A stretch of DNA of 64,000 nt. Source: Branchiostoma floridae. Lineage: Eukaryota; Chordata; Leptocardii; Amphioxiformes; Branchiostomatidae. The DNA is taken from NCBI RefSeq assembly GCF_000003815.2, contig NC_049987.1:11335049-11399048 (forward strand). Direction: 5' to 3'. The notes beneath the pieces were generated by a model. The model saw nothing but the letters and a program-made list of their open reading frames with translations. It did no database searches and was not told where the DNA came from. The translations under genes and the position numbers were made by a program. Positions within the stretch are counted from its first letter, which is position 1. Each line of letters opens with the position of its first letter. Below are positions 11,413-63,300 of this stretch, piece after piece.

Positions 11413-14400
11413 ATGCAGGCGAGACTAACAGCAGCATCAACACAGTTAAACGACGGAGGGGAGGAGGCGAGAGAATTCCCCGAAAAAGACGACTCAAAGT
11501 GTAAGTACATACTATTAGGCAGTACTATGATTGGCGAAATATTTTCGATTATATCTTCAACAGGTATGTTCCTTGTTAATTAATCAGTAGAAAGTTTACC
11601 ACTATTCACGGTAACTTATTGACCGTTTCATTGAGTGGCTATTTTCAACGTGGTGATAAGACTGTGCTGAAGCCAATCAATTGTACTGCAGTGTGTAACG
11701 ACGTTCAAAATGACATACAAATACTGACAGTAACTCCCCCCCCCCTCCAGACAGGACCCAAGGACAGTAAATGTTGGTTGATCTCCCAGGGTCGCTTGCA
11801 AATTAGTTCGCCAACTAGCGCAAACCAGGTGTTGTTCAACAGTACACAAAAGCCTTTAAGGCTTGGGTCAATTCTTTAATACTTAGCCTGCGTGCAAAAA
11901 TTATTTCACCTTGACATTAATACACGTTACAAAAACTGTGGCGCTGGAACTTCGCGTGATGAACTATAGTTCATCACGTGAAGTTCCAGCGCCACAAAGA
12001 AAGGGGCACACAAAGAAAAACAACCCCGCGAAGCTGACCTTTGAATTGGCTTAAGGCGTTCGTACTGTTTGCTTATTAGGTGGGCGGTATCACTTCAGCA
12101 TTGTACAAATGGGATGAATGAACTCAAGTAGGAAAATAATCATGCGACACATCGGGGTCATATGGAAGGGCACATGGCTTTCACTATTCTCTTAATATTT
12201 GGTGCACAGTTAGACTATCTTCGGGCATTGACGAGATCTAAACGCACATAGTTATTGTCAAGGCCAGTGCTCGTACTGTAGTGTGCAGGGATTTAGGCCC
12301 TTTCATCTGGAGATAACAAGATAAATATATAAATAACATAGCTTTCTGCAGACCACTGGTGTGTATGATAGTCAGTGGCCATTACAAGTTCTTCTTGTAC
12401 TCGTACAATTGGATTTCTGTAATGAACAAAATGAAGTGTCTCTTACTTTGGTTGGATAGATGATAGATCAATGGGCTAGTGTAAAACAAGACTGGGAGTC
12501 TTTTCGCTACGTTTGTTTTCAGAATCTATCTTACGTATGCAGTGATACTCTCTAACTTACCTTACTCTTTACTCTTTAACTTAACCTACCGCACCGAACT
12601 GAACCGAACTTAACTGTGCTACTTCATTTCCTAATCCTACTTTGTGTATTCCTGAGGTAGTGAAGTCTCTGGGTAACGCCCTCCGGACGGGGTGGTCGCG
12701 CCAGTCCAGCCGCACGAGGCGGTCCAAGCCCCCGGCGGGAGTGACGGGCCTCCTGCCGCAGATCGTCACCCACGGGCTGACGGACCCCGGCCGGGCTGAC
12801 CGCAGGGTCCGCATCAACATCAGCGGGATGAAGTTCGACACCAGGGAGAGGGTGCTTCTCAGGTACGGTACCGCGTGATAACGTGTGTCATTATAAGCAG
12901 GACCGATTCTCTGCAAGGGCCCGTTCATACTTTGAAGGTGGGTTCACACGTGTGTCCGTTTCAAGTCCGTTTGAGGTCGCATGGAAGTTTAAACCTCTAC
13001 CAGGCTCCACAGACGGTCGCCTGAAAAATAATAGAAATTTGACAAATACAGACAGGTAACATGCCATAGGAGTTAGCTGGTTGCAAACCGCAATTCTCGA
13101 ACAGCTAATTTGTCCAATTTCTACTATTTTTCTAGCGACCTAGTAAAAGCTAAGAATTCCATACGGACCTCCTACGCACGTGTGAACGGGCCCGTGCACA
13201 TAATAGGTCCTGCTTTACGTAATTTCAAGTCCGACCGCGCGTTCCGATCCGTTGACATTTTTTTTGTCTTAGGTAAAAGGCGGGCGAAGTAGTCTTTTTT
13301 TTCAGCTCGATAACCATGCTGCACAACAGTCGTTTATAGTATGGGCGATGCTATTATTTCTCCGTAACTCCGTAAAAGTAATTTCAACTCTCATATTTCT
13401 TTACAAGAATATCCCAGAACGTTAATACCTTAACACTGGTTTCATTTGCAAACGTTAACGTTTTATCATTTCCCACCCAGGTATCCCCAAACCCTCCTCG
13501 GCGACGTTGTCCGGCGGCAGCGGTTCTACGTCCCGGAGGAAGAGGAATACTTCTTCGACCGACACCGACCGAGCTTCGAGGGGATCTTCCGCTACTACCA
13601 AACGGGCAAGATCGAACGGCCGCGCAACGTTCCACAGGACGTTTTCGCGGCAGAACTGGCATATTTCGACATGGGGAAACTTGTCATCAACAAATTTCTT
13701 AAAGACGAAGGGTACGATGTATCGGAGAACGTCTTACCCGAAAAAGAACCCCAGAGAACGGTATGGATTCTTTTCGAAAGCCATGATGGTATTTTGGCCA
13801 AATTCGTCGGCCTAGTTACGGTTTTGTTTATCCTACTGTCGGTGGGGACGTCTTGTGCAGAGACACTACCCCGCTTCCGTAACCTCACAGACCAGACGTT
13901 CGCTCATGTAGGTGACGTCAAAGTGAACCTTAACATCGCCTTCAGTAACATCTTCTTTCAGATTGAAACAGCGTGTATCGTCTGGTTCTGCATTGAACTC
14001 GCCATGCGTTTTTATGCAAGCCCAAGAAAAAGACGGTTTGTTAAGGACATCATGAATATTCTGGATTTCGTGGTGATCTTGCCTTACTTCATCGATCTCA
14101 TCTTGATTGTGGCGAACGTTGACCCCACGGGGTCTAACATCATCCCTGCTACGATAGTACGCGTGCTGCGATTGGTCCGTGTCTTCAGAATCTTCAAGCT
14201 ATCAAGACATATGAGGTAAGAGTTAAGATGTCTAAGTAGTATCCCTCGGAAACGTAAGAGCAGGAAGTTCTAAATAGTAGCCTACGAAAGTCATTGTTCT
14301 TTTTGTTGCGTCAATAGTTTCTCTGATACCCTCACCCCACTGATACCTCCTAGAGCGCTTCAGATGCTGGCCGCCACCCTGAGAGCCAGCGCTCCTCAGC

Positions 14401-16715: not shown

Positions 16716-25192
<8,477 letters not shown>

Positions 25193-26729: not shown

Positions 26730-29700
26730 ATGGGGCTGGTGTCAGCGTTGAAGCAGTTTGTGGTGGTTCACATCCTCATCGCGTACGTGTTCATCGTGAG
26801 CGGGATCATCTGTAACATCTTCCAGGCTGCAGGGTACCTGCTTCTCCGACCTATCTCCCTCACAGCCTACAGGAAACTGGCAGCGTTCTTCACTAACATG
26901 CACTGGAGCCGTGAGTTGGTTTTACAAGATTCTTGGTCTGCAAGCCATTTCATGATATGAGAAACCAAATTTGGATTTGTGTAGCCCTTAACTTCATACT
27001 AGTAGCTGGAATGATGCAAGAAAAAGGTGTTGTTTTATATGAAATTTGTTTCCTATTACTAGTATTAGGAAACTGTCAATGGTTGCTGAGCATCCATTCA
27101 ACAGTGGAAGCCTCTATTTGAAAGGGGGTGTTAGTCAATAAGCCCTTTCACAGAGATCAGGATGCATGTATGGTGACAGGGATTCTAGGTAATTTGTGAA
27201 AGGTAAAGGCCTAGAAAAAGAAAATAAAACCCGTCTGGACATTGTCATGCAAATCGATACAATGGTCGAAACAAGGACTGTTTTCATTTTGGGGCCTTAC
27301 CTTTGACATATTACCTAGAATTCCTGTCGCTGCACATGCATTCTGATCTCTGTGAAGGGCTTATTAATAATGCATTGTCCAAAGAGCAACTGTTAGTGTT
27401 ATATCTACATTCTATCATTACGTATGTAGTACACCAACATTGCAAGTCAGAAATCAGGTTATGAGAACTTATGTCTGATGTCCTACATGTATCTACTGTG
27501 TTAAGAGTTTCATCATCTAGACCATGTTTGGTTATTATACATTTGAAAATGAACATTGTAATTTATTTGATGAGTTTTTTTTTCCATGGGCCATCTTGTC
27601 ATCACTTAAGTTCCAAAACCAAGCTTGTTTTTAGCATGATGTCATGGTTGTTGCCTTGGTCTTAGACTTACTAGTACTTTGTTGATTGTATTAGCCAGTA
27701 CACGTTTATTGAACCAACAAGAAAGTAGTTTTTTTGCAGTTTGTCCTTTTTTTCCCATGCTTGTCCCTTTTTTCCCATGCACGCTCCTCACAGAAGTGGT
27801 TTTCCTGAACGAATGGTGGGCAGGGTCAGAAGTTACAGTTTATTCTAGTGATGAGCAGTGGCAGGAACACTTTGGGAAGGAGAAGGCTGTTATAGTGATG
27901 AACCACCATTATGAGGTGGATTTTCTGCATGGCTGGACCTTATGTGAAAGGTTGCAGGTGTTAGGGGTAAGTTAGTCAGTCAGGCCGTGTGCTAACTCAC
28001 GCATGTTAGTCTTATGTAGATGTATGCATACTACAAAGTTACTGGGTTGTTTGTGATAAACAAAAACATCATGACCTCATGTGCCCTATTTAGACATTCA
28101 CATTTGTTTACACTCGGCTGGTGTGTATCTATTTATACCAAAAGAAAATAAAGGGACCTTGGTTCAAGGTATTTTTATCCTTGCTGTTTGTTACATGCCA
28201 GAATATTGAAATCATAAACTTTGATATGATAAAGCAATAAATGCCAAGAAGAAGGCTTACGATGTAGATTTAAAGATTTTCAAAGCTTTTTTTCTTCAAA
28301 TTATTTTCAGTTTTGCCTCCAAAATCTTACATTGAATCTTAATTTTGCTTGAGTTGAACTACACTTTGAAATAGGGTGCATGGGTCTGTGATGATTCCTG
28401 TGAAGTCACACCCAACCTCACTGTCCTTGCTAACGCTGTGTGTGATATCTGTTCCTCCTGACTACATCCATACTATCATTCCACGCTTCGCTGTTTAGAA
28501 CTGGTATTTCTGAACGAGTGGTGGGCAGGCTCCACCATTAACATGTATGGTACGGACGCTGACATTGGACGCATCGGGAAAGAGAACGCGGTCCTGTTGA
28601 TGAATCATAAGTATGAGACGGACATGATCAGTGGCTGGACCGTGTGCGAGCGGTTCGGATGTCTCGGGGTGAGTTAGTCGTATTATCACATATGGTCTGA
28701 CTGTCATGTCATAAAGAAGCCTCAGAAGGTCACCCCAAATGGAACGACCAATATGTCTTTCTTTCAATATGGGAAAAGTTTCCTTATAGACCTGTAACCT
28801 TTGCTTTGCTTGCTTGAATTGTAATATAGTGGACCAGAAATTCTGGTCACTCTAAAACGGTCACAGCTTGACCTCTTCATAAACTTTTGTCACCCCTCTC
28901 TATGATTTCAACCTCACTGATTCTTACATTTAATGTAGTTATTTGGGCATGTACATAAAATACCTGTAAGCATATACAGATTCTCATAGCTAACCTTTGT
29001 GTACCAGTGTTTCTGTTAATCTATTTTTATTCCAGAGGCAGGTGTGTGTTGTTGTTTTCTCATTGATAGTAGATTTACCAGGCAACTACATAATTATGCA
29101 AATATATATGAGCTACATTTTTTAAGCAAACTTCATGAAAACTTTAAATAGAGAACTATATCCTAATGTTTTTAGCTTGTGCTACATGATAGAAATGATT
29201 TCCTTTTCAGAACTCTAGGACACCAAAACAGATAGTTACAACAATGCAAAGTGTTGTTTAAACTGAAGGGTGCATAATTCACTGCATATTGTGGGAAAAA
29301 AATTCTCTACTAGATAGGTAACATGTGTAAGCAAATGCAACATATTTCAACCATCTCCCACCTATGCAAAAATGGACTGTTCCAAAAGTGAATTTAAAAA
29401 AAAATTACCTATGGTATGGTTGAAATATAACAACTCATACTTGACTTGTAAGTTGTACACACATAGAAATATGAATACGTGAGATGCAACTTAGTATTTG
29501 TAGCTAGATACTATCATATTGTAGTCTGTCAAACTTGGTTAACACGTAATCACAGTATTCCTGTGTATTTGTAAGCCTGGAAAATCTTTAAAGACTAAGA
29601 CTAGCCTACTGTTTTCAGACATCCCGAGCCCTTATAAAAGAATCAGTCAAGTACCTGCCTGTTGTTGGCTGGACCATGTTCTTCATCGAGTTCCTCTTCC

Positions 29701-32555
29701 TGAAACGTGACTATGAGGAGGACAAGAGAACCATCGTCAAACAGCTGAAGGAACTACAGAACTATCCAGACAACTTCTGGGTAGGGTTTTATGTTTGCAA
29801 GATTAAAATCATTGTGTTGTTTAAGAAATAGAACCGGTAATGCTTGCTTTTTCAGAGATAAGGAAAACCTGCCCAAGAAGACCATTTAAGGAACCAATTT
29901 TAGACCACCTTTGAATGGTGCCGACTTTAGACAGGATTGTTAATGATTGTGTCAATAGGAAAGCTTATCAAAGGGACTTCCAAAAAGAGTTCATATCGGT
30001 TAGGTGTTCCTTATGCCAAGGTGGTCACTTGTACAGAGTTGGCTGAACAAGTATGTTACATAGACAATAATGTCAATTTGGTCTGACTTGTTATTTAAAG
30101 TTTTAGGATATGTGTTATAATGTGGTTTTCATGTTGAATCATTCTGATAAATGATTTATGAAAATGGCCGTCCCATCCAGCTCCTACTGTTCTGTGAGGG
30201 CACACGCTTTACTGCAGAGAAGCATGAGAAGTCCATGGAGGTGGCCAGGAAGAAGGGTGTGCCTGAGCTGAAACATCACCTGCTGCCTCGTACCAGGGGC
30301 TTCCTACTCTGTGCACAGGGCATCAGGGAGTACAGTAAGTGTTAAACTGAGTCCTAATCCCTCCTTACTCGGAAATACGACAAGTAAACTCCCGGACACA
30401 CACATACACAGAACAACGTGTGTATGAGACTCTCCATTCAGACTGGGCTGTTCCATTCGTGAAGGGGGGGGGACTAACCTATTATAAGTACAGTAAGATG
30501 TTCTTGATGTGTTTCTATTTGTCATGATATTAATCAAATACTCCACTGTATCTATAGAATTCTTTACAGTCTGTTTTTTGTTGTATGATAATAGCATGAT
30601 CACAGCATGTTGTTTAAATTTGATTATAACTTAAACCGAAATATGCATTGTTTATATATGTATACATATATATATATGTGATGAATTGAATGTGTCGCTG
30701 TATTGCAAATAAAATATAGAGTTTAAGAGGACATTTAATTATGAAGCAGAAACATTGTTTATAGACACATGAACATGAAGGTTATTTAAAGCTTAAGACA
30801 GTGAATTCCTTTGGTCAGATAGAGACTGTGATGTAATCATGAATCTTGTCTAATACATACCCATACTTCAGTTCCAGCCTTCTATGATGTAGAAATTCAC
30901 TTTCCCAATGGCAGTGCAGAGCCAACATTAATGGGTCTGCTGAAGGGAGAGGCACAGCATGCCCACATCTATGTCAGGTAATTATAAGGTTTCTGTGGTC
31001 TGTTTATTATCAAAAAAAACTAGAGACAACAGACAACAGTAGCAGATATATTCTACTCCAGCTTATGCATACACATGTATGTTGAAACCAATCAAATTTA
31101 TTTATGTCATGTCTGATTAGATAATCCTGTCTGAAAATATGATTTGATTTTTTTACAGGAGGATCCCTACAGAGGAGGTACCAGAAGATGAGGATGCCTG
31201 TGCTGAGTACTGCCATGAACTGTATAGGATAAAGGTTGGTAGGTCTCCAAGCCATATGATAAAGTAGAGAGAAATGTCTGTTCAACTTCAAGAACAGAAA
31301 ATGTACCAATATGTCTTGTGTTAGTGCCATGACTAAGTAGTTTAATGATATATTTATTTATCTATTTTCAGTTTTTTATTAGGATAAATTTTGGGTTCAT
31401 ATATTACCAGCTGTAACAGCACCATTAAGATTTATATTTCCTAATACATGTATGTGGAAAATATCACTGTCATCAAAAATCTTGCCATATGTTTTAGCCA
31501 CTGTCTTCACTTTTTGTTTGTTTTATCCACCGGACAGGAATTTAGAGTATTTTTTAGCAAAAGATCCATAATAAGTGAAGAAAATATCACTGTCATCGGA
31601 AAGGTTGTGAAATTTGCTTGGAAAAGTTGTGAAATTTGCCATGTCTTTTATTCACTGTCTTTACTTTGTATTGGTTTGTTTGATCCACAGGACAGAAATT
31701 TTGAGTACTTTGAGCAGAATGGTCGGTTCCCGGACAAGGTTCGCGAGATCCCTCGGAGGCCGTACACACTGATCATCATCATCTTCTGGTCCGTCCTGCT
31801 GGTGGTGCCCCTCATCAAGTACCTGGTGGGCGTGGTCATGTCAGGATCCACCCTCATGATTGCTGGAGTCATCATGGGCGGGGTCCTAGGTAAGGTTCTT
31901 AAAAATTACAACTAACAGATTCAAACAGTCTGATTCCCTACATGACTTGGTTCTTTTAAGAACAGTACAATTATAGTCAAACTCATGCACAGTGATTTTG
32001 GCGGTAATTGATGGCGATAGATGCAATTGGCTGCTATGTGCTTGGTACAATTAAGTGAATGAATAAACCTTTCATTATCATTATTATAACTAGTTGTGCC
32101 TTGCTTTGGGGTCATTTTATTGACATGCAATTGCAGATAAATTCAATGTAAGTACATAGAGTCACAGCTGTGATTCATACATTTTGTATTGCATTGTGGC
32201 CATCCTAGCTTATGCTTGGGTCAAATTTCTAATTCCCTGCCAGGCAGTTTTGGTACGAAAAGTATGGTACAACATAGGACAAAAATCACAGAATGTACCA
32301 AAATCATTACAGAGCATAATTTGTGCATATATATTGCTATACACTTAAAATTTTCATTTCTGCAATCAGTCCATCCTTGCCCAGGCTAAGAAATGTGACC
32401 CTAGCACCATACAATATTGAACCAAATCAAATTAGATCAATAAATGCTTTTCTGTTGCAGTTTCACTGTTGCTGCAGAAGATGATGGAAGTAACCCAGAT
32501 CTCCAAAGGCTCCAGCTATGGACACACCAAGGGGAATGATAAGAAAAAGGAGTAG
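26730..32555 (+). CDS. 1-acylglycerol-3-phosphate acyltransferase, AGPAT3/4-like
   Basis: ER-membrane enzyme converting lysophosphatidic acid plus acyl-CoA to phosphatidic acid. Exons: 26730-26910, then either 27794-27966 (2a) or 28499-28668 (2b), 29619-29780, 30181-30334, 30872-30977, 31159-31234, 31691-31889, 32461-32555. Product is 381 (2a) or 380 (2b) residues; human AGPAT3/4 are 376-378. Features: N-terminal membrane segment (about residues 10-38); catalytic NHX4D box (NHHYEVD in 2a, NHKYETD in 2b, about 96-103); LFCEGTRF substrate-binding motif (about 175-182); LLPRTRGF; C-terminal hydrophobic segments (IIIIFWSVLLVVPLIKYLVG and beyond); and a terminal KKKE, a dilysine ER-retrieval signal also present in human AGPAT3. 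The ATG is in a strong CACCATGG context just after a 5'-UTR acceptor. The AGPAT3-versus-4 split is not resolvable here. Confidence 0.96.
27141..27361. mobile_element. 221-bp MITE with TA duplication, acyltransferase intron 1
   Basis: Left end AGCCCTTTCACAGAGATCAG and right end (reverse complement AGCCCTTCACAGAGATCAG) are long inverted repeats that continue inward for about 65 bp with mismatches. TA flanks both sides (27139-27140, 27362-27363), as for Tc1/mariner-type insertions. No coding capacity. Confidence 0.75.
27794..27966 (+). other. Acyltransferase alternative exon 2a
   Basis: Bounded by CCTCACAG and GTAAGT. 173 nt, entering in phase 1 and leaving in phase 0. Encodes the segment with NHHYEVD, the catalytic His/Asp box. 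It is homologous to exon 2b at 28499-28668, sharing VFLNEWWAGS, GWT and CER. Part of the coding region at 26730-32555. Confidence 0.9.
28499..28668 (+). other. Acyltransferase alternative exon 2b
   Basis: Bounded by GCTGTTTAG and GTGAGT. 170 nt, same entry and exit phases as exon 2a but one codon shorter. Encodes the NHKYETD catalytic box. If spliced after exon 2a, the frame would shift and read AAC TGG TAT TTC TGA, an immediate stop, so only one of the two can be used in a productive mRNA. Confidence 0.9.
31457..31690 (+). repeat. Decayed tandem duplication upstream of acyltransferase exon 7
   Basis: GAAAATATCACTGTCATC occurs at about 31457 and again at about 31580. Each copy is followed by a similar CACTGTCTTCACTTT / CACTGTCTTTACTTT polypyrimidine stretch. 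The first then runs into GGACAGGAATTTAGAGTATT, resembling the true exon 7 start GGACAGAAATTTTGAGTACT at 31690. The first copy has lost the reading frame (EFRVFFSKR instead of NFEYFEQNG) and looks like a dead exon fragment. Confidence 0.65.
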
Positions 32556-35315: not shown

Positions 35316-36877
35316 TTACGTCAGGAACGTGTACGCTCCCACTCCCGCTATCAGCACACCAACCACAGCCAGCACGATGGCTCGGGCCTTCTTGATACGT
35401 TTGATGACCCGGTGCTTTCTCTCGCGACTCTTCATGCTGTCGGTCAGCACGGCATCCAGGTACAGATTCAAATCTGTGGTGTTCACCATTCGTACATTGT
35501 CCATAGAGGTAGTGCCCGTTTTGTCGATGTCACCGCTGGCTTTCCTCTCAAGTGAAGAGTTCGGTTTGAGCTCAAGCTGGGTCATGTTAGCGGCGGGGCT
35601 GTCGTAGGTCTCTGGAGAGGAGTCGTCGGGTATATTTGACACAGGGCGGCGAACCCTCACGGTGCTGCGGTGGTTATCTTCGGCCGTGAAGCCCCAGTTC
35701 TCGTATACATCCCACTCTTCACCTCCAAGCTGTGGCTCCCCCGTTGGGACCTGAGTGTGATCGTTAGCCGTGGGAAACTCCTGAACGCGGAAACTTTTCC
35801 AGCCCTCGGACTCGAGAGTCTCCGTCTGCTCAGGAACTTTGGCATTCTTCATGTCACCTGTCGGAGGGGTCGTGGACTTGGGATCAAACAATGGAGGGGC
35901 ATCACTCGATCTCATGGCGTCGGGAACGCGATGATCTGGAGAGTCGTCTTCAGCAAAGTCGCGCTTCGCCCGGACACTATCCCATCCGCTCTGCCCGGAT
36001 CCTGAGAAGCCTTCGGGATCTGCGGCACCAGCTGGGAAGTCTTCCCAGCTTTGGTGCGAGGGATCATTGGTGGCATTCCCATCGGTGACATTCACATTGG
36101 TGGCATTCACATCGGTGTTGTAGCTGGATGGCACCGTGATACTAGTAGTCACAGCAGCTACCTACAAACAAAACACGTTCAATCTCATTACATACATGGA
36201 CGGATTAAGGACAATTGTGTGATGTCAAAATCAGGGCTTCTTGACTTGGAAACTTATTAGTTTTCTATCAAACGGTTGTCTAGATTTCACCAAGCTTTCA
36301 AATGGTGGATGAATCATGCAATGTATTATAAGGAAGACAGGCAGCAAGAGCTTACATTATCACTATCTGCTCGGTAGTCTCCCCAGCTTCGATACAGGGG
36401 AAAGTTGGTGGCAGACACATCTACATCGGTTCTGGAGAAGGACTGTACTGTGAACGTCATGGCAGCTACCTATAAAAACATTCATTCAATCAGAATAATA
36501 ATCCATGGTTTCTTGACTCGGCCACTTCGAATCACTTTTGTAACATATTGGGTAAACTTTCTCAACTCAATTGAAAAGAACATATCGGATTAAGGTAAGA
36601 AAGACAGGCAACGATACCCTACCAAGCCTGCTCTACATGTTCGCCATTGTCTCTGGATTCCGTAGTGTACTAAAGGTACTACTGTTTTAAGTTGTGAAAT
36701 GATAAACTGTTGTTGTAGAAAACTTACCGATGTCACAGCAAAGAGTAGCATCACAGCTACTTTGAGGTACCGCTGACGTCCATCTTTCTTGTCAGCTTGA
36801 CTGTCTGAGGGAACAAAGGACGGAAAGGTGACCGCCCGGGCCCGCCGGTGTCTCCGTCTGCCGCGTCTTCTGGACAT
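35316..36877 (-). CDS. Unrecognised membrane protein with repeated Trp motifs
   Basis: Exons 36877-36728, 36469-36356 and 36161-35316, all phase 0 with GT-AG borders; 369 residues. I do not recognise the family. Visible: a very basic start (MSRRRGRRRHRRARA); a first hydrophobic segment spanning exons 1-2 (about residues 38-54, YLKVAVMLLFAVTS then VAA); three sequons in NATNVNVTDGNAT (about 107-119); an acidic Pro/Ser/Thr-rich middle; short motifs each centred on Trp (SWGDY, SWEDF, GWDSV, GWKSF, EWDVY, NWGF; W at about 79, 127, 148, 209, 238, 244); a possible furin-type RAKR; and a C-terminal hydrophobic segment (AIVLAVVGVLIAGVGAYTFL) after a basic patch. Exons 2 and 3 both begin VAA and end the shared part with an SW motif, suggesting exon duplication. 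Exon 2 is skippable in frame. Confidence 0.8.
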
Positions 36878-42303: not shown

Positions 42304-42589
42304 NNNNNNNNNNNNNNNNNNNNNNNNNNNNNNNNNNNNNNNNNNNNNNNNNNNNNNNNNNNNNNNNNNNNNNNNNNNNNNNNNNNNNNNNNNNNNNNNN
42401 NNNNNNNNNNNNNNNNNNNNNNNNNNNNNNNNNNNNNNNNNNNNNNNNNNNNNNNNNNNNNNNNNNNNNNNNNNNNNNNNNNNNNNNNNNNNNNNNNNNN
42501 NNNNNNNNNNNNNNNNNNNNNNNNNNNNNNNNNNNNNNNNNNNNNNNNNNNNNNNNNNNNNNNNNNNNNNNNNNNNNNNNNNNNNNNNN
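42304..42589. other. Assembly gap, 286 N
   Basis: Run of ambiguous bases; the non-round length suggests a size estimated during scaffolding. No flanking gene is interrupted as far as I can see. Confidence 0.95.
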
Positions 42590-52902: not shown

Positions 52903-52956
52903 AGACAAAAACTTTGACATTTTTCCCTTATTCCGTCCATTTCCTAAGCTATAGAA

Positions 52957-55317
52957 ATGTCCTCTCAAGGTGAAGATAGAGCGCTGATATTCCGCCTGTC
53001 CGATAACGTGCCAGAGGTGGTCCGACAGGTTCTCCTGGAGCGCTCGTGGCAGGAGTGGGACGAAGACTTACACGAGGAGTACGACTGGAATCTACACTGG
53101 CGTACCACAAGGTTCCGGGTCTCCGACTATAACCAGACAATGTCGTGGCAACGGCTCAACCACTACCCAAAGACGGACGCCATCACCAAGAAGGATTGTC
53201 TTGCCCGGAACCTGCGGCGAATGAGAGGAGTGTTTGGCCCCACCGTGTACAGCTTTAGTCCACAAGCGTTCAACCTTCCTAACGACTACACAAAGTTTGT
53301 AGCAGAGTACACAAAACTGAAGCAAGCAGAACCCGATAAACCGCACTTCTGGATATGTAAACCTGCGGACATGTCTCGCGGACGTGGAATCTTCATCTTC
53401 CGTGATCTAGGGGAGCTGACGTATGACTGTCAAGCTGTCGTGCAGAGATACATGACAAACCCACTGCTTATATCTGGTTACAAGTTCGACCTCCGTATCT
53501 ACGTCTGCGTCCCAAGTTTCCATCCCTTGACAGTGTACATCTACCAGGAGGGTATTGTTCGCTTTAGTACAGAGAAGTTCGACCTGTCCACCATTGACAA
53601 TGTCTTCTCCCATCTCACCAACACAAGCATCAACAAGTTCAGTCCTTCCTACTCCACAGACAAGGAGCGCGTTGGGCCGGGGTGCAAGTGGACCTTGTCG
53701 CAGCTGCGGACCTATTTCCACCAATCCAACCTTGACGACCGAATGCTGTGGCAGCGGATCAGCAATATCGTGACCTTGACCCTGTTGTGTCAGGTGCCGA
53801 CTGTTCCGAAGGCTCCGTACTGCTGCGAGTTGTTTGGGTTTGACATACTGATCGATGAGAACATGAAGCCGTGGCTGCTGGAGGTCAACTTCAGCCCTGC
53901 CCTGAGCGTGGACTGCCAGGCTGACTTGCTTGTTAAGAAACCCATGCTGCACGACTTTGTCGAAATCATGAACTTTAAGGAGTCGGACTGTGAACGGGGA
54001 GGCCAGGAGTTCCGTGCTAGTAAAATCAACGCGTCATACAGTGCCACCTCACCTCGATACAGTAGGACTCTTAGACGTAGGAGTAGCTTTAATTCTAAGC
54101 CTTCACCAAGGGGAAGCATGCTTTCAACAGGGAATGGGAAAGGTTTGAAGCAGGGATCGTCCCGCACCAGTCCGACGTTGCCGCCTCTGTCACCGCGCCG
54201 TGGCTCCACCACCAGCCTGGGGAGCAGTACCAGCAGTCAGAGTCCCAGCCTCAGCGGAGATGATGCAGCTGGGGAGGAGGAGGGAGACGGTTTCCATGGA
54301 GACAGCAACCATGGTGAAGGGGAGGACGAGAGTCGTCTAGAACCCATCAAGGAGGGACATAGAACTGATTACACCTCCCCGAGGACAACGCCGGTTCAGA
54401 ACCTGAGTCGGAGGTTGTCGCTTCCCGAGGTTCAAAGTCAAACTCCTGGTCAGAGGAGGAAGTTATCGTTCCAAGTAAGGAGGGAGAAAAGCAAGAGCCA
54501 TAAAATCACTACAGCAGCTGCCGCTCGCAGGGCACAGATGATAGAGGAGCAACGAATCAAAACTAAGTCTGCACCAACCACAGACCAGCTGACCAATCAC
54601 AGCAGTGCCTCTCCTAAGTCAGCCAACCAGCAGGCAGTTTCAAATGAGGAACAGGGCAGTGCATCAACCAATGATGACAAGTCTTCTGATAAAGAAGAAA
54701 ATGAAAATAGAGAAGAGAGCAATGCAGGAAACAAAGATGTCTGTACTGAAGAAGATATCTCAACACCGACAAACAATAATAACTCTACCCAAGCAAGGGT
54801 ATCAACTAGTAAACCTAAAGAGGTGCAGACCCCAAGGAGAAGATACTCCTATCCCTTAAACCGACAATCCAACCCATCTGCTCAGGTGGGAAACCCAGGA
54901 GTGAACAGAACTGAGACCAGTAGGAGGGTCAGTGTGTCCGGTACCCCCACATCCATGACAAGCAGCAGGCCACGCAGGCCGCTGTACCAGAGAACTACCA
55001 ATCCCACTCAGGACTCCGACAACAAGAGCAGGGCTCAGGGCCCGCTGCCCCGGGTAGGAGATTTCATTCTCACGTATCCGTTCAACGAGGCCACGAAGAA
55101 GGCGTCGTGGCCGAACGTGGACCAGCGCTCCATCATCCGTGAGCTGCAGAGGCAGCTGAGACAGACGCTGAAACACGTGCAGACCTGCAAGACTCAGCGC
55201 ACCACGCAGGACATCATCACCGGGGGTAACATGATGACCAGCATCTATGGGCAGGGCCAGGTGGAGGACAGCGTGAGGTGGGGCCCTGTTGCCTTGACAA
55301 CCATGGGTCATGGATAA
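52957..55317 (+). CDS. TTLL2: Tubulin polyglutamylase, TTLL2-like
   Basis: ATP-dependent ligase of the tubulin-tyrosine-ligase-like family, expected to add glutamate side chains to axonemal or cytoplasmic tubulin. One uninterrupted 786-codon frame. An in-frame TAA at 52945 sits four codons before the ATG and fixes the start. The TTL domain covers about residues 10-345: FWICKPADMSRGRGIFIF (131-148, nucleotide binding), KFDLRIYVCV (176-185), HLTNTSINK (219-227), ELFGFDILID (291-300) and PWLLEVNFSPAL (305-316, acidic and Asn metal ligands). The similarity to vertebrate TTLL2 covers the whole domain, including VFRLxxxxPEVV-like and DWNLxWR-like segments. The rest is Ser/Thr/Glu-rich and probably disordered, with a conserved-looking GDFILTYPFNEAT tail near 705. 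The intronless frame suggests an old retrocopy or intron loss, but the UTRs are spliced. Confidence 0.95.
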   Translation: MSSQGEDRALIFRLSDNVPEVVRQVLLERSWQEWDEDLHEEYDWNLHWRTTRFRVSDYNQTMSWQRLNHYPKTDAITKKDCLARNLRRMRGVFGPTVYSFSPQAFNLPNDYTKFVAEYTKLKQAEPDKPHFWICKPADMSRGRGIFIFRDLGELTYDCQAVVQRYMTNPLLISGYKFDLRIYVCVPSFHPLTVYIYQEGIVRFSTEKFDLSTIDNVFSHLTNTSINKFSPSYSTDKERVGPGCKWTLSQLRTYFHQSNLDDRMLWQRISNIVTLTLLCQVPTVPKAPYCCELFGFDILIDENMKPWLLEVNFSPALSVDCQADLLVKKPMLHDFVEIMNFKESDCERGGQEFRASKINASYSATSPRYSRTLRRRSSFNSKPSPRGSMLSTGNGKGLKQGSSRTSPTLPPLSPRRGSTTSLGSSTSSQSPSLSGDDAAGEEEGDGFHGDSNHGEGEDESRLEPIKEGHRTDYTSPRTTPVQNLSRRLSLPEVQSQTPGQRRKLSFQVRREKSKSHKITTAAAARRAQMIEEQRIKTKSAPTTDQLTNHSSASPKSANQQAVSNEEQGSASTNDDKSSDKEENENREESNAGNKDVCTEEDISTPTNNNNSTQARVSTSKPKEVQTPRRRYSYPLNRQSNPSAQVGNPGVNRTETSRRVSVSGTPTSMTSSRPRRPLYQRTTNPTQDSDNKSRAQGPLPRVGDFILTYPFNEATKKASWPNVDQRSIIRELQRQLRQTLKHVQTCKTQRTTQDIITGGNMMTSIYGQGQVEDSVRWGPVALTTMGHG

Positions 55318-60370: not shown

Positions 60371-63300
60371 TTATGATGATGATATTCCGACACTATAGCA
60401 TCCCAGGACCTCCAGCCTCATGCAGATATGTTGGTGCCAGGTCAGCACCACCACGCGGATGTACCTGGTACTGACTGGCGGGTGAAGGACGTGAAGAACG
60501 GGGGACGTCGTGTCACTGTTACCTGTGAACACCTGGGCCATGGGCAAAAAATAAGATGGCGGGTGAAGAAAGCATAATGGAAACCATGGACTGTTTACAA
60601 TCAAGACGTTTACTTTAATTATTACAAGCATCTATAACTTAAAGGGAATTTTCTAGACTATACTTAGTTTAGTACTTGATTGACTTCGAAAATGGCCACT
60701 GCATGTCTTTGCACCAAAATAAATATACCGATGTGCATTTAACGTTACCACGTCTAGCACTGTTATCTATATGGAAAAGCACCATCCATTTCTTAATTCC
60801 TCTCTTATATATCATTTATTCTTTTATCAATTTTATCTTCACATACATAGATAGAATATTTAGGTAGTACTTGCAACAGAAATCCTTTGTCCCTTAAGTT
60901 ATTTCTAACTTTTACGAAAATAACGTCTGACTCAGTCTACCTTATACGAGCCGTCCCTGTCCTTGCATGTTGTCCAGGATTCTCCGTCTTTGCTGAAGAG
61001 GAGCTTGTATGATGTCACATATTGGGGTGTATGCCCTTGAAGGTCACGACCTCGCGTTATGACTCCAGAAACCCTAGCAAAGCCAAGGTCAACCTAAATC
61101 CAGAACAGTCCTCTTAATACCCCCTTCACATGTAGCGAAAATCAATCGGACGACGAGTCTGCGAGCTCTAAATTACAAGGAGGCATGACTCGCCGTCCGA
61201 TTGATTTTCGCCTAATGTGACGGGGGTATTAATATATCAACATTCAAAAGACTTATACATTGTATTGTTTTATACGGAGACGGCTATTCCAGCCACAATT
61301 TTTACTTTTCTTAAGAATATTACATAAAACATGCAGCTATCTTTAGCCACTAATCAGCTGTGCTTTTGTTACAAATGTAAACATGGGCGTCACGATACCT
61401 TTACCCTTACAATTTCATTGTATTTTGTACTAAACAGTAAATTATCTGCATTTCTAAATGTGTTATTCAATACATACCTGAGTCATTTTAGGTTACAACG
61501 CATTTTTATGTAGACAAAATACACATCAGGCCAACGCCGGAATTTGCGGGGGCTAAACAGAATACGTCATCTTGAATGAGGTAGATAAGATGATATGATA
61601 TTTGTATCTCCATGAAAAATTGAGATATCGTTTTGGGTGCCCCCCTAGCAACTTTCTTTGGAACTGCAGGGGCATTTTGGACAAGCTATAAGAAGAATAA
61701 CACACCAAGGGAGCGACAGACTTCTATGATATTTGTTGTACCTGTATCCACTCGCCAGCATTTTGGTTCCCGGCGCACCAGGCCATATTAACCGCTTGGT
61801 TCAGCCTGCCGTGAGCCTTCTTGCACCTAACATCTACACCTTCAGACGATGCTGTGATGCTGCCGTCCAGGATGTGTCCAGACTCCATCCCCAGCGGGGA
61901 TCGGCAACCTTTCATAATGTTAATTAGGATGTTACGCTTTACTCTATACTTCTATTTTGTACTGTATGTAATAGCTGTTGCCATACATTGTTCTGTGTAC
62001 AATTATTATAAGTTCTCATAAGAGCCATATTCAGAACACACTGTAGAACAATGGCAGGAACATCAGAGCGAAAATTGATTTGACGCAGATGAACGTTACT
62101 ATATATAGCTGCTATTCTTGATAACTACGGAAATCTACGCCTGATAGTAGTCGAGCTACTAGTTATGACGTACGGTCATATTCAACTCCTTCCTTTTATT
62201 TTGCAAACTTCTTTAGCATAGCATACCATACCAAAAGTTCATGAAAAAAATATATCAAGGGTTTCATAAATTGAAAGGACTTACCAGTATCCATACAGCC
62301 CAGGATTTCCACTCGCAGGGATTGACGTCTGTGCCAGGTCTGCACAACGAAGCGGATGTATCTGGTAGAAGCTGGCGGCCGGAGGATGTTAGCTACCTCA
62401 GTGTGCCAGTTCTTGTTCCCTGTGAAAACCTGATTTCAACAACATATCTGTCATTTTGGGGCCCATTCAGAATTCTGTATGTGTTGTTGCACATTTTGCA
62501 GCAGTCGGGTCGCAAACGATACGTTTGGTGCCGAATTCTTCACATATCAGTAGCGACACTTAGCGGCATCATGAATGAGATAGAATCCGTCAGTTTTGCC
62601 CTGAGTAAGATGACAGGCGCTCACCGAAACGTTGGCTGTGTACAGACAATTGGTTAGGTGCAAAGGACTTTGTTACCGATACCTCCTACTGATAAGGACT
62701 TGTAAATGGTAAGCCACAAGGGACTGTACGTCCAGGTACTAAATTTTTGTAACAAAAAAAATCTGTTAATGAAAAATTTACACTTAGCACACTCTTTGCG
62801 CAATAGAATCAGACCAGACATCAGTACCTTATCTGACCCATCAGAGTCCTTGTAGGTTGTCCAGGAGCTTCCGTCCCAGCTGAACTGCAGCTTGTATGAC
62901 TCCACCCACTGGTTATGACCCGCCCTGCCCTCAGTGATAACGCCCTGTACCTTCGCTGCACCGCCCAAGTCAACCTGTACAGGAACATTGGTCACATTCA
63001 ACTTTCTTTTTCTTTTCAGCAATGCAATTAAAAACAAATATGCAAATGTATAAATACATACTTGTAAGATACTGTAAATGCAGAAATGTTCGCGGTGGAT
63101 TAATGTTCGCGGTTTTCGCGGCGGCCGCTTCAACGCGAATTAAAAACCACCGCGAACAATTTTCCATAACAGTAAGAGACTACAGTGCATGGTGCTACCG
63201 CGAAATTAAACCACCGCGAAAAGTCCATTTTCCCGCTATCGCGAAATTAAATCCCCGCGAACTTAGATGCATCTACAGTATCATTTTCATCTTTTTTCAA

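Follow-up and report, generated by a model that had tools for sequence, protein, structure and literature searches.

The exchange of part of an enzyme's active region by mutually exclusive exons is already known, and it is an AGPAT case of this kind that looks new. According to PMC7434440 it is rare for one splice event at the catalytic core to bring about a clear change of enzyme specificity; CYP4F3 is given there as another enzyme case and few others are said to exist. The subject of that paper, COQ-2 of helminths, annelids and molluscs, has exclusive exons 6a and 6e that remodel the enzyme core near the active site, which is the likeness it bears to the AGPAT pair described here. The human acyl-CoA synthetases ACSL6 and ACSL1 are close in another respect, as they have exclusive exons and make acyl-CoA, the donor used by AGPATs; what is swapped in them is a short fatty-acid gate motif with a Phe/Tyr gate residue and not a catalytic box (PMC1543647). 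In ACSL6/ACSL1 the exchange has been seen in transcripts (PMC1543647) and in COQ-2 the substrate switch is backed by genetic evidence and by its occurrence in a range of species (PMC7434440), whereas for the AGPAT pair both the exchange and any functional effect are predicted from sequence.

Two further enzymes have an exchanged region that holds ligand-binding or catalytic residues. Human ACOX1 (acyl-CoA oxidase 1) is, like the AGPAT, a lipid enzyme with a tandem duplicated exon, its exchanged region being 55 aa long with 28 conserved, and all five predicted FAD-binding residues are reported in both forms (PMC9741552), just as the AGPAT pair keeps the catalytic His and Asp of motif I, although ACOX1 is of another family and catalyses another reaction. 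In ketohexokinase (KHK) the catalytic Arg108 falls within the exchanged region and both isoforms keep it (PMC9741552), which again resembles the AGPAT pair, although KHK, a sugar kinase, belongs to a different class of enzyme. The AGPAT3 and AGPAT4 of vertebrates have the N/H/D of motif I in common with the present gene, as well as FxxR and EGTR, but they are two separate genes, and the parts of the two source papers drawn on here mention no alternative motif-I exon (PMC6688108, PMC8753187). This exon switch in an AGPAT was not reported in the titles or abstract openings of open-licence PMC papers among the matches listed, and no word beginning with AGPAT or acyltransferase occurs in the main text of either PMC9741552 or PMC5740500.

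The window is a stretch of 64,000 nucleotides from the amphioxus Branchiostoma floridae, and within it an AGPAT-type gene is found on the plus strand, with coding exons that span 26730-32555 according to a splice model and its translation (Table 1). All of its coding introns are GT-AG. By its sequence the gene product is a member of the PlsC/AGPAT acyltransferase family, with Pfam Acyltransferase (PF01553) matched at 49.0 bits by the isoform containing exon 2a and at 45.2 by that containing exon 2b (curated cut-off 23), and Acyltransf_C (PF16076) at 84.8 and 84.7 bits respectively (cut-off 26.5). Motif II (FLKR) and motif III (CEGTRFT) were read by eye in the translations of exons 3 and 4, and in an alignment of 36 rows, made up of 2a, 2b and 34 bacterial relatives, every row has the N, H and D of motif I. 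As motif I lies in exon 2, motif II in exon 3 and motif III in exon 4, it is motif I that would be exchanged, with motifs II and III, and IV by position, held constant.

Table 1. Coding exons of the AGPAT-type gene and the intron between the two copies of exon 2 (positions are those of the window)
Feature	Position	Strand	Content	Basis
Coding exon 1	26730-26910	+	ATG; N-terminal hydrophobic segment (by eye); ends in phase 1	Splice model, translation
Exon 2a	27794-27966	+	173 nt; motif I NHHYEVD	GT-AG, open frame, homologous to 2b
Intron 2a-2b	27967-28498	+	532 nt	
Exon 2b	28499-28668	+	170 nt; motif I NHKYETD	GT-AG, open frame, homologous to 2a
Exon 3	29619-29780	+	Motif II region, FLKR	Splice model, translation
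Exon 4	30181-30334	+	Motif III EGTR; motif IV region by position only	Splice model
Exon 5	30872-30977	+		Splice model, translation
Exon 6	31159-31234	+		Splice model, translation
Exon 7	31691-31889	+	C-terminal hydrophobic segments (by eye)	Splice model
Exon 8	32461-32555	+	Stop codon TAG	Splice model

The gene is presumably of the AGPAT3/4 type, an assignment that we base on human sequences and on the Pfam domains, which are general to acyltransferases. Compared with one segment of each human protein, 2a is identical at 32 of 57 residues to AGPAT3 and 27 of 57 to AGPAT4, and 2b at 28 of 57 to AGPAT3 and 29 of 55 to AGPAT4. Scans of viral and genome collections confirmed no animal relative, the second genome scan giving 53 loci, all with bacterial titles, and among solved structures there was one weak match, to the T. 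maritima PlsC 5kym.

Other genes appear to lie in the window. Class I tRNA synthetase exons (Pfam tRNA-synt_1b; by eye a tyrosyl-tRNA synthetase) are present on the minus strand at 23026-23220 and 23741-23938, with an apparent start near 25190 by eye, which would place this gene head-to-head with the AGPAT gene. On the plus strand BTB_2 and Ion_trans domains are encoded in an open frame at 13434-14216, by eye a piece of a voltage-gated potassium channel, and there is an unbroken open frame of 789 codons with a tubulin-tyrosine ligase domain at 52948-55314. The minus strand has an open frame of 281 codons at 35319-36161, which lacks a Pfam match and by eye is hydrophobic at its C-terminal end, and another at 62657-63139 in which part of an F5/8 type C domain is recognised.

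The reading preferred for the AGPAT gene is that exons 2a and 2b are a mutually exclusive pair that swaps motif I and its surroundings whilst the other motifs stay constant, and a probability of about 0.8 is given to this reading of the sequence. The initial annotation had proposed such a pair, and the splice model reproduces exactly the coordinates it gave for the two tandem homologous exons. Its claim of proper splice sites with identical phases is also borne out, as the acceptor reads CTCACAG at 2a and TGTTTAG at 2b, the donors read GTAAGT and GTGAGT respectively, and both exons are entered in phase 1, a lone C closing exon 1, and left in phase 0. A complete NHX4D motif is found in the translation of each, as had been proposed. 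Exclusive exons have elsewhere been recognised as neighbouring internal exons with lengths within 20 aa of each other (PMC3228551); 2a and 2b are adjacent, internal and differ by far less than this in length. They also agree in reading frame and phases, lack an in-frame stop and encode homologous peptides, and just 90 of 16180 non-exclusive exons on the Drosophila X share features of this kind with a neighbour (PMC3228551).

When the four exon combinations are compared the reading frame is open only with exactly one of the two exons, being 381 aa long through 2a and 380 aa through 2b with a common stop. Exactly one is needed because neither length is a multiple of three. Skipping both leads to a stop at codon 91, and inclusion of both shifts the frame and gives a peptide ending in NWYF, with the stop at codon 123, which is the fifth codon of 2b as originally described. 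The further statement that splicing must choose one exon is right as far as a usable reading frame is concerned, but not as a mechanism that would prevent the two exons being spliced together. The stop in the joint form lies 852 nt upstream of the last junction, thus nonsense-mediated decay of this form would be expected. It could be supposed from these stops that both exons are used with no purpose at the level of the protein, the joint and skipped transcripts acting as decoys for nonsense-mediated decay that set the amount of enzyme. The early stops of both transcripts and the distance of the joint stop from the last junction are in keeping with this, but decoys do not need a second exon of coding quality and the selection on the protein that is set out below would be left unexplained, and this reading is considered very improbable.

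The two exons are clearly related. Their peptides are identical at 32 of 57 aligned residues (56%), and a tblastn search with 2a finds 2b, and the reverse, at an E-value of about 9e-20; no third copy of exon 2 was found in the window, where the next match of either exon has an E-value of at least 0.36. At the nucleotide level 64 of 171 bases differ, 20, 12 and 32 of them at first, second and third codon positions, and 16 of the 32 identical residues are encoded by different codons in 2a and 2b. The flanking introns are not recognisably related, as the similarity of the 300-nt flanks is no better than that of shuffled sequences (185 and 34 of 300 reach the observed score), and an extension of the tblastn match at 2a, by about 76 nt into the upstream intron, is of low identity and was taken as chance. 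Tandem duplication of the gene was considered and rejected, as tblastn searches with both whole isoforms (E-values up to 0.1) show only exon 2 to be repeated, with exons 1 and 3-8 each found once in the window.

That the two copies are alleles of one exon placed in tandem by an assembly error or uncollapsed haplotype would also account for a duplicated exon, and the window does contain two runs of N (20495-20594 and 42304-42589), a mark of imperfect assembly, which lie at least 7 kb from the duplicated exons. Yet the copies are unlike at 25 of 57 residues and at 64 of 171 bases, far beyond what is seen between alleles, the introns around the copies are unrelated and the neighbouring exons are single. 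On these grounds an artefact was rejected and is given almost no weight. The initial annotation had named an assembly or haplotype duplication as something that would refute it, and no sign of this was seen. Judged from the letters of the window, 2a and 2b are a real and old tandem duplication of coding exon 2, the copies together bearing the mark of selection at the protein level. The bacterial relatives match 2a 70 times and 2b 84 times over the differing columns up to GWT, and so give no decision as to which copy is the ancestral one.

The evidence for selection comes from the way in which the copies have diverged. By the NG86 method dN is 0.38 and dS 1.66, the latter near saturation, giving a dN/dS of about 0.23. 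Neutral drift was simulated with one copy wholly free to drift from the other until the observed number of base changes was reached, in 5000 trials for each direction. From either exon none of the 5000 trials kept 32 identical residues, the average being about 20 of 57 and the maximum 29, and only 385 and 687 of 5000 trials from the two starting exons were free of stops, although such neutral tests are blind to a copy that was silenced only recently.

Alignment of 2a with 2b shows 26 of 58 columns to differ, and these are unevenly placed. Half of them (13) are in the linker, residues 73-88 of the 2a isoform, with 3 in GKExAVxxM, 2 of the 7 columns of NHX4D, 7 of the 15 in the segment directly after the motif I Asp and 1 of the 12 in QxVFLNEWWAGS. 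The suggestion that the differing residues surround the catalytic His and Asp is therefore only partly right; it stands for the 2 residues within NHX4D and the 7 after the Asp, but not for the half that lie in the linker. Directly after the Asp 2a has FLH and 2b has MIS. A folded model of a bacterial relative (L017, pLDDT 91.6, pTM 0.89) was used to stand in for the spliced isoforms, and exon 2 corresponds to about residues 51-113 of this protein, an approximate alignment with gaps after motif I. On the model the exon would start where the second helix is ending and supply the strand that leads to motif I, the catalytic loop and then a further helix.

The residue preceding the catalytic Asp is Val in 2a and Thr in 2b. 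Among sixty LPA acyltransferases this position is reported to be almost always hydrophobic (PMC6688108), so that the Val of 2a conforms and the polar Thr of 2b is the sole departure from a stated family rule. A departure of this sort might be expected if the duplication is real but a single copy is spliced into the mRNA, the other being retired or silent, and the lower third-position GC of 2a (0.53, against 0.70 in 2b) could be taken as a similar hint about the other exon. However, Thr is also present at this place in 4 of the 34 bacterial relatives, neither exon has a stop, a frameshift or the loss of a splice site, and both the dN/dS and the failure of every one-copy-neutral simulation to retain the observed identity speak against a silent copy. 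Decay of one exon copy thus appears unlikely from its sequence, and the use of only one exon is regarded as improbable.

Both exon copies look capable of catalysis by sequence. With 2a and 2b read as an exclusive pair, the isoforms would retain the catalytic His and Asp together with motifs II-IV, and would differ in the Val or Thr before the Asp, in the FLH or MIS after it and in the linker before the catalytic strand. Such differences may be expected to shift substrate preference or rate and not to abolish activity, and we infer that exon choice may tune the substrate used; an effect on localisation had also been suggested in the initial annotation. Ligand-binding residues are for the most part avoided by the exchanged regions of human genes, which make up 14% of the sequence and contain 10.7% of these residues, but when such residues are included 80.6% of them are kept compared to 53.1% of others (PMC9741552). 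The pair, 56% identical and with its N, H and D kept, fits this pattern of retention. The tendency to avoid ligand-binding residues, together with the 13 differences in the linker, counts against a role in substrate choice, and the chance that the 2a and 2b isoforms really differ in function is considered to be even.

Mechanisms that could restrict the spliceosome to one exon were looked for in the sequence. The donors of 2a and 2b score alike on donor-site frequencies, at 5.3 and 5.2 the second and third highest of the gene's eight. Branch-point-like matches were sought within 130 nt of each acceptor, and before 2b there are two. The A of CTAAC is at 28433, 466 nt from the 2a donor, and that of CTGAC at 28461, 494 nt from it, and both matches lie within a 93-nt stretch free of AG upstream of 2b. 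Given this distance and the AG-free stretch a steric block is not expected, and steric exclusion was rejected. Incompatibility of U2 and U12 sites was also rejected, all sites being GT-AG and of U2 type by eye.

Competing RNA structures were rejected too, as nothing rose clearly above dinucleotide shuffles, although these are weak tests made on one sequence. Duplexes between introns were no better than many shuffles (11 and 6 of 24 were as good), and the best intron helices were equalled by 180, 30 and 192 of 200 dinucleotide shuffles. The strongest in comparison with its shuffles, reached by 30 of the 200, joins the 2a donor region (to 27991) with the sequence from 28689 on. A 20-nt pair, 90% complementary, at 28269-28288 and 29573-29592 would loop out 2b, but is not the top-scoring helix and is not distinguished from chance. 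Two other repeats were noted in this part of the gene. Just 5' of the 2a acceptor there is a tandem repeat of 20 nt at 27741-27780 (two copies, 95% alike) with T-rich tracts, which may have strengthened the acceptor, and intron 1 has an inverted repeat whose 73-nt arms, at 27144-27216 and 27287-27359, are 82% complementary and stand 70 nt apart; it may be a small mobile element.

As nothing was found that would block splicing of 2a to 2b, regulation by a splicing factor becomes the default view. It is proposed that the spliceosome would place one of 2a and 2b between exons 1 and 3, with the choice set by a trans-acting regulator rather than by steric hindrance or RNA pairing. Transcripts that include both exons or neither would meet an early stop and probably be removed by nonsense-mediated decay.

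It can be suggested, though this is doubtful, that one invertebrate AGPAT3/4-type gene makes by exon choice two enzymes that differ in their preference for acyl donor or lysophospholipid, where vertebrates use the two genes AGPAT3 and AGPAT4. If true, a glycerolipid acyltransferase would have its NHX4D catalytic box altered by an exon switch, and the polar Thr before the Asp in 2b would mark the altered form. If both forms are made the gene would provide a natural two-state experiment, in which one enzyme body with constant motifs II-IV is fitted with two motif-I modules, and a comparison of 26 columns could serve to map the residues behind the acyl or acceptor preference of AGPATs. The composition of membrane lipids could then be set for each tissue without duplication of the gene.
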